Positions 26,268 through 29,988 of a DNA stretch of 64,000 nt are shown in pieces. The notes under the pieces are model-generated. The model was not told where the DNA came from. It saw only the letters and a list, made by a program, of their open reading frames with translations, and ran no database searches. The position numbers were made by a program, and so were the translations under genes. Numbering within the stretch: the first letter of the stretch is position 1; each line of letters begins with the position of its first letter. Source of the DNA: Gemmobacter aquatilis. GTDB lineage: Bacteria > Pseudomonadota > Alphaproteobacteria > Rhodobacterales > Rhodobacteraceae. The stretch covers positions 661,382 to 725,381 of the forward strand of contig NZ_FOCE01000001.1 in assembly GCF_900110025.1 (NCBI RefSeq), given 5' to 3'.

Positions 26268-26903
26268 TTACCAGCGCAGCAGCCGCGCCCCGAGCAACGC
26301 CCCGGCCAGCGTGACGCCAAGGATGGCCGCGCCATACCAGGTGATGAAGAACAACGGGTTATCCTCGGTGCAATGCAGCGCATAGGCGGTCGCGGCCCCA
26401 GCGCTGGAGGCCAGACCAAGCATGGCCCCGGACAGTGCGGGCCGGGTGCTGGCCCCCCGGCGCAGCAAAGCAAGCCCCGCCGCCAGTGGCAGGATCGAGA
26501 ATAGCACGATAGAGATCAGGCACTTGGCCTGTGTCGAGCCACGGATCGCCGCACCCATCTGATCGGCGGGCGTCTGTGCCCAGGCCCAGCCCAGCAAGGC
26601 AAGCGCCGCCCCCGTGGCCAGCCAGAGCGGGGCAAGGCGCAGCCCTGCACGCGCCTCGGGCCGGGCAAGGTTCAGCGCCAACGCGAGGGACGCCACCGAC
26701 AGCGTGGCCGGGATCAACGATTTCAGCAGCGTCACCGGCGCCAGGAGCGCCGGGCCCAGATCGGGGCGCATCCCCATGCTCCACAGGAACCACAGCACCG
26801 GCGGCGCCAGCACCGCCAGAAGCACCGCCACCACCCGCGCCGGCCGGATCGGCGCAGGCGGAGCTTGGGTGGCCAGTCGGGTGATCAGGTCTTCGGTTCT
26901 CAT
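26268..26903 (-). CDS. nrsF: NrsF-type (DUF1109) anti-sigma factor
   Basis: A 211-residue inner-membrane protein with six predicted helices and a short cytosolic N-terminus ([13 protein letters not shown]), matching DUF1109/NrsF. It has two Cys, Cys128 (TQAKCLIS) and Cys178 (ALHCTED), 50 residues apart. The Caulobacter NrsF senses metal/oxidative stress through a Cys pair I recall at 131 and 181, with the same spacing. It overlaps the ECF sigma gene by 4 bp, so the pair is coupled. It should hold the sigma factor at the membrane until copper or another thiol-reactive signal releases it. Confidence 0.88.
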
Positions 26904-27445
26904 CGCTCCGGCCTCTGGCCCAGGGCGGCCAGCCTTTTCATCGCACGGTGGAAGGCCACGCGCACCGCACCTTCCGACATCGACAGCCGGGCGCCCACGG
27001 CCCCGGCCTCCTCTCCTTCCAGACTGACCGCGCGCACGATCTCGGCCGAGCGCGCGTCGATCTGCGCCAGCATCCGTTCGGCATCACGCGCCGCCAGCGG
27101 CTCCGGCCCGGCCACCGCTTCGAGGATTTCGGTGAAATCCTCGATCGGCAGATGCACCGCAGCGCCCCGGCGACGGAAGGCATCAATCACCTTGTGCCGC
27201 GCCACCGCGAACAGCCAGGGGCGCAGAGGGCTGTCGTCGCGCCAGGTGTGGCGCTTTTCATGGATCGCCAGCAGCACCTCTTGCACGATGTCCTCGTGCC
27301 GGTCGGGCGGCAGCGCCCGTCCCCGGGCCCGCACGATACCGCGCAACACCGGCGTGATGGCATGCAGAAGGCGGGCGTAAGCACGCCCGTCCCCGGCATT
27401 GGCCGCCCGCATCAGCGCCGCCCAGTCTCGTTCGGTATCGGTCAT
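26900..27445 (-). CDS. sigF: ECF sigma factor of the SigF/ECF16 type
   Basis: A 181-residue ECF sigma factor. Region 2 includes [17 protein letters not shown] and [20 protein letters not shown]; region 4 includes [28 protein letters not shown]. The NrsF-type anti-sigma gene directly downstream defines the subgroup. The start is set at ATG 27445; an ATG at 27457 would overlap a candidate -10 element. It is divergent from the bufferin operon. By analogy with Caulobacter SigF-NrsF it is expected to switch that operon on under copper stress. Confidence 0.88.
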
Positions 27446-27455
27446 TCTGCCCTGC

Positions 27456-27483
27456 ATTACGCCGCCCGCGCCGGATTGTTACA
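27456..27483 (-). promoter_or_regulatory. Possible ECF promoter facing the sigma gene
   Basis: On the minus strand TGTAAC (27483-27478), 16 bp, then CGTAAT (27461-27456). It resembles the plus-strand site at 27539-27566 and would give autoregulation with almost no leader before the ATG at 27445. The very short leader makes this less certain than the plus-strand site. Confidence 0.4.
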
Positions 27484-27538
27484 GGCCGCCCGAAATTTTC
27501 TTATGCACGATCACGCCCAAACACCAAAGCGTGAAGGC

Positions 27539-27566
27539 GGTAACGCCAGCCCCTTTCCCTGCGAAT
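27539..27566 (+). promoter_or_regulatory. Candidate SigF-type promoter of the bufferin operon
   Basis: GGTAAC at 27539-27544, a 17-bp spacer and CGAAT at 27562-27566. The AAC-containing -35 and CGAAT -10 fit ECF promoters, and what I recall of the Caulobacter SigF consensus. Transcription would start near 27573 and give a leader of about 43 nt with an AGGA site before the precursor gene. Confidence 0.55.
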
Positions 27567-27616
27567 GGCATTCCCGAGAGCCGGTTGGGCTCTTGTTCAA
27601 CACAGGAATGATCGCG

Positions 27617-27892
27617 ATGACCATGATGACCAAAACCCTTTCGCTGACCGCCACGCTGGCCACTGCCCTGACGCTGGCCGCCGCCGCGGCCCATGCCGAG
27701 GGCGAGATGGAAAAGTGCTATGGGGTGGCGATGGCCGGCCAGAACGATTGCGCCGCCGGCCCCGGCACCACCTGCGCTGGCACGGCGAAGATGGATTATC
27801 AGGGCAATGCCTGGAAGCTGGTCCCCGCAGGCACCTGCACCACGATGCAGACGCCGCACGGCATGGGCTCGCTGGAACCGATCAAGATGTGA
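27617..27892 (+). CDS. bufA: Bufferin-type RiPP precursor (DUF2282), BufA
   Basis: A 91-residue precursor. Residues 1-27 form a Sec signal peptide ending AHA, so the mature peptide of about 64 residues is periplasmic. The DUF2282 core has four Cys: Cys34 ([10 protein letters not shown]), Cys45 (QNDCAAG), Cys53 (TTCAG) and Cys74 (PAGTC). In characterised bufferins, Cys residues of this core are converted by the MNIO enzyme to thio-oxazole-type heterocycles that bind copper. The start at 27617 is chosen from four close ATGs because AGGA lies 9 bp upstream. A SigF-like promoter precedes it, and a stem-loop separates it from the enzyme gene. Confidence 0.88.
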
Positions 27893-27900
27893 TGCGCCTT

Positions 27901-27928
27901 CGGGATGCGCGCTTGCCTGCGCATCCCG
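27901..27928 (+). promoter_or_regulatory. Stem-loop between precursor and modifying enzyme genes
   Basis: A perfect 10-bp inverted repeat (CGGGATGCGC at 27901-27910, GCGCATCCCG at 27919-27928) with an 8-nt loop, 8 bp after the bufA stop. It has no long U-run (ATCTTTCCCC follows), so partial termination or 3'-end protection of the bufA message is more likely than full termination. This would give more precursor than enzyme. AAGGA before bufB lies just downstream. Confidence 0.65.
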
Positions 27929-27951
27929 ATCTTTCCCCAAGGATCATACCC

Positions 27952-28806
27952 ATGCGCCCCAGCCTGCCCCCCGCCCCCGGCCTTGGCTTCAAGCCAGAGC
28001 ATTTCGAGACGATCCGCGACCTGCGACCCGATCTTGGGTTCTTCGAGGTCCACGCAGAAAACTACATGGGCGCGGGCGGCCCGGCGCATCGCCAATTGGC
28101 CGCGCTGCGCGCCGATTATGCGCTGTCGCTGCATGGGGTGGGCCTGTCGATCGGCGGGGCACGGCTGGACCGCGATCACCTGGCCCGGCTGCGCGCCCTG
28201 ATCGACCGCTATCACCCCGAAAGCTTTTCCGAACACCTTGCCTGGTCCAGCCATGGCACCGATTACCTGAACGACCTGCTGCCGCTGCCCTATACGCCCG
28301 AAACCCTGACCCTCGTCTGCGATCATGTGGACGAGGCGCAAGAGGCGCTGGGGTGCCGGTTGCTGCTGGAAAACCCCTCGACCTACGTTCTGTTCGCCCA
28401 ATCGACGATCCCCGAGCCGGAGTTTCTGGCCGAAATCGCCCGGCGCACCGGCTGCGGCCTGTTGCTGGATGTGAACAACGTCTTTGTATCCTGCACCAAT
28501 CACCGGATGGACCCGCGCGCCTATCTGGCCGCCTTTCCGCTGGCGGTGGTGGGCGAGATTCATCTGGGCGGCCATGCCGAAGAGGCGCTGCCCTCCGGCC
28601 CGCTGCTGATCGACGCGCATGGCAGCCCGGTCGCCGATCCGGTCTGGGCGCTGTTTGCCGAGGTGATCGCCCGCACCGGCCCGCTGCCCAGCCTGATCGA
28701 ATGGGACAATGACGTGCCGCCTTTCCGCGATCTGCTGGCCGAGGCCCGGCGCGCCGCCGCCGTCTTGCGGCAAGACCGTGAGGTGCGCCTTGCTTGCGCA
28801 TCCTGA
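27952..28806 (+). CDS. bufB: DUF692/MNIO multinuclear iron oxidase, BufB
   Basis: A 284-residue TIM-barrel enzyme of the DUF692/MNIO family that uses two or three iron ions and O2 to oxidise Cys residues of RiPP precursors. Candidate metal ligands are at the usual positions: HAEN (34-37), LHG (His61), SEH (94-95), ENPS (Glu140, Asn141), DVNN (Asp173, Asn175), EIHLGGH (His204, His208), DAHG (Asp221, His223) and EWD (Glu250, Asp252). The ATG at 27952 has an AAGGATCAT site. It follows the DUF2282 precursor gene and overlaps the DUF2063 partner gene by 29 bp, the standard bufferin order. Confidence 0.92.
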
Positions 28807-29560
28807 TTTCATCACGGCCTTCCGGCAGGGCCTGTTCAACGGCACCCTGCCCCCGGGGCTGACCGTCCCCGCGCCGGACGAGGCGGAACGCCGCTTTGCC
28901 GTCTATCGCAACAACGTGGCCCATTCGCTGGGCCGCGCACTGGCGGCCCGCTTTCCAGTGATCGAGCGGTTGGTCGGCCCGGAATTTTTCGCCGCCATGG
29001 CCCGGGTATATCTGGGGGGCGATCTGCCTGCCTCACCCCTGCTGTTCCAATGGGGCGACGGGTTTGCAGGGTTCCTGCAGGGCTTCCCGCCCGTTGCGGG
29101 CCTGCCCTATCTGCCCGATGTCGCCCGGCTGGAATTTGCCCGTGGCCGGGCCTGGCACGCCGCCGACCATCCGCCCGCCCCGCCCGAAGCTCTGGCCGCG
29201 GCTGCCGCGCAGGCCGATACCGCGCGGCTGGCCCTGCACCCATCGGTGGCGCTGCTGGCATCGGATTTCGCAGTGGTGTCGATCTGGCAGGCGAACCAGC
29301 CCGACGCCTTACCTGCGCCCATAGATGCCACCCAAACAGAAACAGCGCTGATCCTGCGCGACCGGCGCGATGCAGTCCGCGTGCTGGCGCTTCCGCCCGG
29401 CGATGCCGCCTTTGCCCGCGCGCTGCAGTCAGGCGCCCCGCTGCTGATCGCGGCGGAAAGCGCCGCGCACGCCGCGCCGCGCCATGACCCAGCCCGCCTG
29501 CTGCTGTGCCTGATGCAGGCCGGCGCCCTGATCACCCCGGATACCGGAGAGCCAAGATGA
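28778..29560 (+). CDS. bufC: DUF2063 family partner protein, BufC
   Basis: A 260-residue DUF2063 protein: an N-terminal putative DNA-binding-like domain ([26 protein letters not shown]) and a C-terminal domain. In bufferin and related systems this protein binds the precursor leader or core and presents it to the MNIO enzyme. No ATG fits. A GTG at 28778 is used here; a TTG at 28790 has the better ribosome site (GAGGTG) and would shorten the protein by four residues. Either start overlaps bufB, so translation is coupled. The stop overlaps the DoxX gene by 4 bp. Confidence 0.85.
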
Positions 29561-29988
29561 CCCCGCTTGCCCTGCTGCGCCTGAGCGACACCCTGCTGTC
29601 CCGCCTGCCCTGGGATGTGGCGGCGCTGGCGTTGCGCCTGTTCCCCGCGCTGGTCTTTCTCGCATCCGGCCAGACGAAGGTGGACGGTTTCGCCATCGCC
29701 GACAGCACCTGGTATCTGTTCGAGCATGACTATGCCCTGCCGCTGATCCCCCCGGCCTGGGCTGCCGTGGCCGCCACCCTTGCCGAGCATGTCTTTCCGG
29801 TGCTGCTGATCCTTGGCCTTGCCACCCGCGCCTCGGCGCTGGCGCTGCTGGGGATGACGCTGACCATCCAGATCTTCGTCTATCCCGATGCCTGGGCGAC
29901 ACATGGCCTTTGGGCGGCCTGTTTCCTTGGCCTGATCGCAGGCGGGCCGGGGCGGCTGTCGCTGGACCGGCAACTGCTGCGGCCATGA
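29557..29988 (+). CDS. DoxX-type membrane protein of the bufferin operon
   Basis: A 143-residue integral membrane protein with four hydrophobic segments, matching the DoxX family ([17 protein letters not shown] and [24 protein letters not shown]). DoxX proteins are often the fourth gene of bufferin operons. They may supply electrons from the quinone pool or help with membrane redox steps, but no mechanism is settled. The ATGA overlap with bufC indicates coupled translation. It is the last gene of the operon and faces purU across a terminator. Confidence 0.87.

Follow-up and report, generated by a model that had tools for sequence, protein, structure and literature searches.

A single-copy Buf1-type bufferin operon divergent from a SigF–NrsF pair in Gemmobacter aquatilis

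The stretch of DNA analyzed here (the window) comprises 64 kb of the 3.96-Mb genome of Gemmobacter aquatilis, a member of the Rhodobacteraceae (assembly GCF_900110025.1, contig NZ_FOCE01000001.1, forward-strand positions 661,382 to 725,381). Within it lies a putative operon for a bufferin, a peptide precursor with its modification enzyme and partner proteins, which diverges from the genes for an extracytoplasmic function (ECF) sigma factor and its anti-sigma factor in the order nrsF–sigF ← → bufA–bufB–bufC–doxX. The features of the locus, in window coordinates, are as follows:

26268–26903, reverse strand: nrsF, membrane anti-sigma factor of 211 residues (Pfam NrsF, 153.7 bits)
26900–27457, reverse strand: sigF, ECF sigma factor of 185 residues as listed (NCBIfam PRK12512, 208.8 bits, cut-off 198; Pfam Sigma70_r2, 40.5 bits)
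27458–27482, reverse strand: candidate sigma-F-type promoter of sigF-nrsF, GTAACA-N15-CGTA (pattern match)
27540–27565, forward strand: candidate sigma-F-type promoter of bufA, GTAACG-N16-CGAA (pattern match)
27617–27892, forward strand: bufA, Buf1 (DUF2282) precursor of 91 residues with an apparent signal peptide (Pfam DUF2282, 93.3 bits, cut-off 22.4)
27900–27929, forward strand: perfect 11-bp hairpin with a loop of 8, between bufA and bufB (stem search)
27952–28806, forward strand: bufB, MNIO enzyme of 284 residues (Pfam MbnB_TglH_ChrH, 343.4 bits; NCBIfam MNIO_BufB, 375.3 bits, cut-off 310)
28790–29560, forward strand: bufC, DUF2063 partner protein of 256 residues, TTG start assumed (Pfam DUF2063, 75 bits, cut-off 27.2)
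29557–29988, forward strand: doxX, DoxX-family membrane protein of 143 residues (Pfam DoxX, 64.2 bits)

The original prediction had named these six genes at these positions, and each of them passes a family test: the matches to DUF2282, MbnB_TglH_ChrH, DUF2063, DoxX, NrsF and Sigma70_r2 all exceed their Pfam cut-offs, with two sigma region-4 models falling slightly below theirs in SigF (24.6 vs 25.7 bits and 23.1 vs 24.1 bits). Homology search places the precursor, first described as DUF2282-like, in DUF2282 itself, and its length, its cysteines at positions 34, 45, 53 and 74 and the letters of its C-terminal tail are as originally read. Membership in the Buf2 group is not indicated, since BufA reaches 20.3 bits with the NCBIfam BufA2 model, whose cut-off is 60, and carries four cysteines where Buf2 precursors usually have six. 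The tight, overlapping arrangement that had been proposed holds from bufB onward, where bufB overlaps bufC and bufC overlaps doxX, but bufA and bufB stand 59 nucleotides (nt) apart. In the genome as a whole, DUF2282, MNIO and NrsF are matched once each. These genes and families, like the promoter-like sites and the conservation presented below, are direct observations.

Conservation was assessed over 110 loci, consisting of the window, 29 loci (L004-L032) from 29 of the 69 other DUF2282-matched genomes among 100 same-family genomes searched, and the best 80 of 572 BufB relatives (L041-L120), chosen by BufB similarity. The four BufA cysteines are present in all 130 precursors aligned from these loci (the window's and tandem copies included), and ten positions (C34, G36, N43, C45, A47, C53, G55, V69, G72 and C74) are invariant across 59 aligned precursors, again counting the window's. 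The 17 residues that follow the last cysteine are equally unexceptional. They fit a P…G-x-L pattern in which P80 recurs in 119, G84 in 129 and L86 in 121 of the 130 precursors, the motif TPxGMGSLEP is found in ten tails, and the 13 C-terminal residues of BufA at locus L041, from Gemmobacter lutimaris, are alike; the DUF2282 Pfam match ends at residue 84. Judged from these alignments, the tail is usual for the family. A distinct tail is thus rejected, and the proposal that core and tail together mark the precursor as an undescribed member finds no support. Nor is a role of the tail as a separate follower peptide supported: the AlphaFold2 predicted local distance difference test (pLDDT) score of 77 for residues 81-90 is near the core value, a hint only, given the weakness of the model (mean pLDDT 67.3; 42-44 for the other four models). 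Tandem bufA genes lie between sigF and bufB in L073, L078, L081 and other Rhizobium loci; precursor genes in tandem have been mentioned before (PMC12452194).

The modification enzyme BufB keeps E32, H34, H61, H95, E140, D173, N176, H204, D221, H223, E250 and D252, each of them in 110 of 110 aligned sequences, as candidate iron ligands, and its best solved relative is 3bww (E 7.5e-40), an MNIO with a diiron cluster (PMC13419390); solved-structure searches with BufA and BufC gave no match at E 0.001. In the literature, Buf1 bufferins are described as DUF2282 precursors whose clusters may include sigma and NrsF genes, whose central cysteines are modified and whose outer two are joined in a disulfide, and which sequester copper (PMC12452194). 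For HvfA, thiooxazole formation is reported to cost 4 Da per cysteine. Since BufA has two central cysteines, the expected shift would be about -8 Da, or -10 Da with the disulfide; the figure of -4 Da per converted cysteine pair given in the original prediction should apply to each cysteine, and only the central ones are Buf1 targets. The N-terminus of BufA resembles a signal peptide by eye, and this segment probably acts as the leader, because modification of HvfA is poor once the signal sequence is removed, a behavior that has been likened to that of bufferin.

Both candidate promoters lie in the 159-nt gap that separates sigF from bufA. The sigma-F consensus of Caulobacter crescentus is GTAACC-N16-CGAA (PMC3511200), from which the sigF-side site deviates in its -10 element (CGTA) and its spacer of 15. 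With a relaxed form of this consensus (sixth base free, spacer 15-16, CGAA or CGTA), just two sites were found in the entire window, both of them in this gap and one on each strand. Out of 20000 shuffles of the gap, 32 had a site on either strand and none had sites on both. Across the 110 loci, for which a spacer of 15-17 was allowed, SigF and/or NrsF were detected in the fetched stretch of 72 (65 of the 80 BufB-relative loci); for L004-L032 the flank was at most 1.5 kb, and L022 had almost no upstream sequence, so that more distant sigma genes would be missed in this set. At least one sigma-F-type site within 350 nt upstream of bufA occurs in 70 of the 72 loci with SigF or NrsF, as opposed to 5 of the 38 without, and 45 of the 72 have sites on each strand, although relatedness among the loci inflates these counts. 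Because both divergent transcripts carry such sites, the promoter pair supports SigF control of both. The -10 element of the sigF-side site ends at 27458, abutting the listed ATG (27457), and this suggests that Met5 (27445) may be the actual start of SigF, whose transcript would then have hardly any leader.

The anti-sigma factor contains exactly two cysteines, as had been noted, and these are kept without exception in the ungapped aligned NrsF sequences, the window's included (Cys128 in 68 of 68, Cys178 in 67 of 67). They are likely the counterparts, matched by pattern and not by alignment to the Caulobacter sequence, of the conserved pair C131/C181, whose replacement raises SigF-dependent expression in that species (PMC3511200).

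The locus can be compared with several known systems, and the comparison reveals a typical copy of a known gene set with close relatives already described; in this respect, the operon is ordinary. In Caulobacter, CC3252-CC3257 comprise the same six families in the same divergent order (PMC3511200, PMC8224329), encompassing the SigF operon and its main, SigF-dependent target cluster (PMC3511200). The likeness extends to near-consensus sigma-F promoters and the two NrsF cysteines. The Caulobacter cluster is induced by copper, and a sigF::Tn5 mutant is impaired on it (PMC8224329). Unlike Caulobacter, the genome studied here has no counterpart of the second cluster, CC2905-CC2907, given its single DUF2282 match. 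Among named organisms, the nearest BufB is that of G. lutimaris L041 (81% identity, with 87% for BufA), which shares the gene order and both promoter sites. No substantive difference was seen; the best stem within 90 nt downstream of bufA is 9 bp long there, differs in sequence and lies later. A further parallel is the gigPABT operon of Cupriavidus metallidurans, in which gigT is presumably of the DoxX type. Like the window, this copper-induced operon includes a DUF2282 precursor gene (94 residues and four cysteines in that case) and a DUF692 gene, and it diverges from an ECF sigma/anti-sigma pair, rpoQ-rsqA; this pair is said to depend on RpoD, whereas the sigF gene of the window has a sigma-F-type site of its own (PMC10304878). 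Buf2 bufferins, HvfA/oxazolin and fontiphorin (the 'captophorins') also combine an MNIO with a DUF2063 partner to make 5-thiooxazoles, but on other precursor families (PMC13097082). A literature search for bufferins in the Rhodobacteraceae found nothing.

Taken with these precedents, the locus very likely encodes a Buf1-type bufferin system, present in one copy and controlled by SigF–NrsF, that yields a copper-sequestering peptide. The claim of a self-contained bufferin operon with its own sigma/anti-sigma pair is supported, and specified as Buf1 with sigma-F-type promoters on both sides. By analogy with homologues, for the induction signal and SigF dependence as much as for the chemistry, export and copper binding, envelope metal stress (most likely copper, but other thiol-reactive metals too) would act on the two cysteines of NrsF and lead to the release of SigF, which would then use the two divergent promoters to transcribe bufABC-doxX along with its own operon. 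BufB, with its partner BufC, would oxidize Cys45 and Cys53 of BufA to 5-thiooxazoles; the signal peptide, doubling as leader, would route the peptide through Sec, Cys34 and Cys74 would form a disulfide, and mature BufA would sequester periplasmic copper.

Several observations weigh against this reading. The NCBIfam models for NrsF, HvfC and HvfX score below their own cut-offs, the NrsF equivalog reaching 83.8 bits against 300 and HvfC 54.4 against 142 on BufC. In Cupriavidus, a gig deletion by itself did not change how the parent strain responded to copper, and among five systems Gig mattered least (PMC10304878). Caulobacter sigF was judged not strongly autoregulated (PMC3511200), and hence the sigF-side site may act weakly; its presence may indicate potential, not strength. 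The strict promoter pattern shows no enrichment genome-wide, with 8 sites (this one included) vs 18 for the reversed pattern used as control, so that, with the other seven sites left unexamined, nothing points to a regulon beyond the bufferin locus and a wider SigF regulon finds no support in the promoter pattern. Nor was MsrP found in the genome with NF003767, which we take to be the MsrP model. In Caulobacter, MsrP is a SigF target (PMC8224329), and this sets the two genomes apart.

Two alternative accounts must be considered. With the same operon and chemistry, the physiological signal or ligand could chiefly be a thiophilic metal or oxidant other than copper (chromate, cadmium, gold or silver), copper being secondary. 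Dichromate and cadmium are inducers of the SigF regulon in Caulobacter (PMC3511200), gig genes respond to gold and silver as well as copper (PMC10304878), a sigF mutant copes poorly with oxidative stress in stationary phase (PMC8224329) and fusions to MerC hint that some bufferins handle other metals (PMC12452194). Yet inactivation of sigF causes a severe growth defect on copper, while sensitivity to chromate and cadmium had earlier been found unchanged (PMC8224329), and it is copper that bufferins are reported to sequester (PMC12452194); we thus regard a primary role for another metal or oxidant as unlikely. Far less probable still is that BufA remains largely unmodified and acts as a plain disulfide-bonded periplasmic protein. 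Elsewhere, a sizeable share of bufferin precursor genes lack associated MNIO genes (PMC12452194), but here the adjoining BufB scores above the bufferin-maturase cut-off, its 12 acidic, histidine and asparagine positions are universally kept, and so are the central cysteines of the precursors.

Within the copper-sequestering bufferin system that we favor, the gap between bufA and bufB raises a separate question on the ratio of precursor to enzyme. The fold of 27893-27960, which includes the perfect hairpin, has a z of -4.06. In a first look, the best stem within 90 nt of bufA had at least 7 bp in 69 of the 110 loci, after which the threshold was set at a perfect stem of at least 8 bp within 60 nt after the last bufA stop. 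Such stems occur in 61 of 110 loci, compared with 219 of 11000 shuffles, and are distributed over the window (1/1), L004-L032 (16/29), L041-L070 (22/30) and L071-L120 (22/50). The last set is largely Rhizobiales, and hence the hairpin is not confined to the family. Stems of this size are less frequent in control stretches (0/110 inside bufB, 0/109 after it, 1/108 just upstream of bufA and 4/107 further upstream), between tandem bufA copies (0/20 gaps) and elsewhere in the locus (1/79 after bufC, 6/76 after doxX and 6/57 after nrsF). The 61 loci present 56 different stem sequences, which argues that structure, and not sequence, is what recurs.

A later sample of 29 loci, 5 of which (one from another class, four from the same class) lack a downstream MNIO motif by a loose regular expression, was scored at the same threshold. 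All 6 same-family loci had the hairpin, as did 3 of the 15 from the same class and none of the 8 from other classes, with stems in 1 of 29 control stretches and 94 of 5800 shuffles. A phylum-wide feature is not supported by this sample. One same-family locus, L124, shares stem and tail with L043, perhaps as a near copy, and other overlap between the locus sets is possible. The window, L004-L032 and these six same-family loci combined have the hairpin in 23 of 36 cases. A plain Rho-independent terminator can be set aside, the T-run being uncommon (17 of 61 stems are followed by at least four T within 8 nt). Within the window, hairpins follow 7 of 51 crudely called genes, from which bufA is absent because the gene caller used a long upstream extension of the bufB frame that covers it, and 3 of the 15 in which a same-strand gene follows at 30 nt or more. 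Intercistronic hairpins are thus not rare, and the enrichment is moderate.

Given this distribution, the hairpin is plausibly an ordinary kind of intercistronic element that would keep the precursor transcript in excess. That it is a dedicated device in bufferin operons of this family, maintaining BufA transcript above that of BufBC either through partial termination or through protection of the 3' end of bufA, is an idea we put forward tentatively and hold to be somewhat short of an even chance. The AAGGA that precedes bufB (27939-27943) takes part in a second small stem (27928-27945) of the predicted fold, and this pairing could lower bufB translation. None of the papers listed by a literature search, in which 'bufferin' also matches 'buffering', was on bufferins, and the main texts consulted gave no relevant mention of a hairpin; this does not prove it undescribed.

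The genes that flank the locus encode a MutY-like glycosylase, a fatty-acid-desaturase-family protein, PurU and an FMO-like protein, none of which hints at copper.

The locus thus adds a single-copy case from the Rhodobacteraceae to the Buf1/SigF systems. As no second DUF2282 gene was found in the genome to mask a phenotype, it may serve as a test bed, and the bufA-bufB hairpin offers a testable idea on how the precursor-to-enzyme ratio might be set. At the level of the family, DUF2282 was found in 70 of the 100 genomes searched and NrsF in 12 of those 70. SigF wiring hence looks like the minority arrangement, and many bufferin operons in the family are probably under other control.

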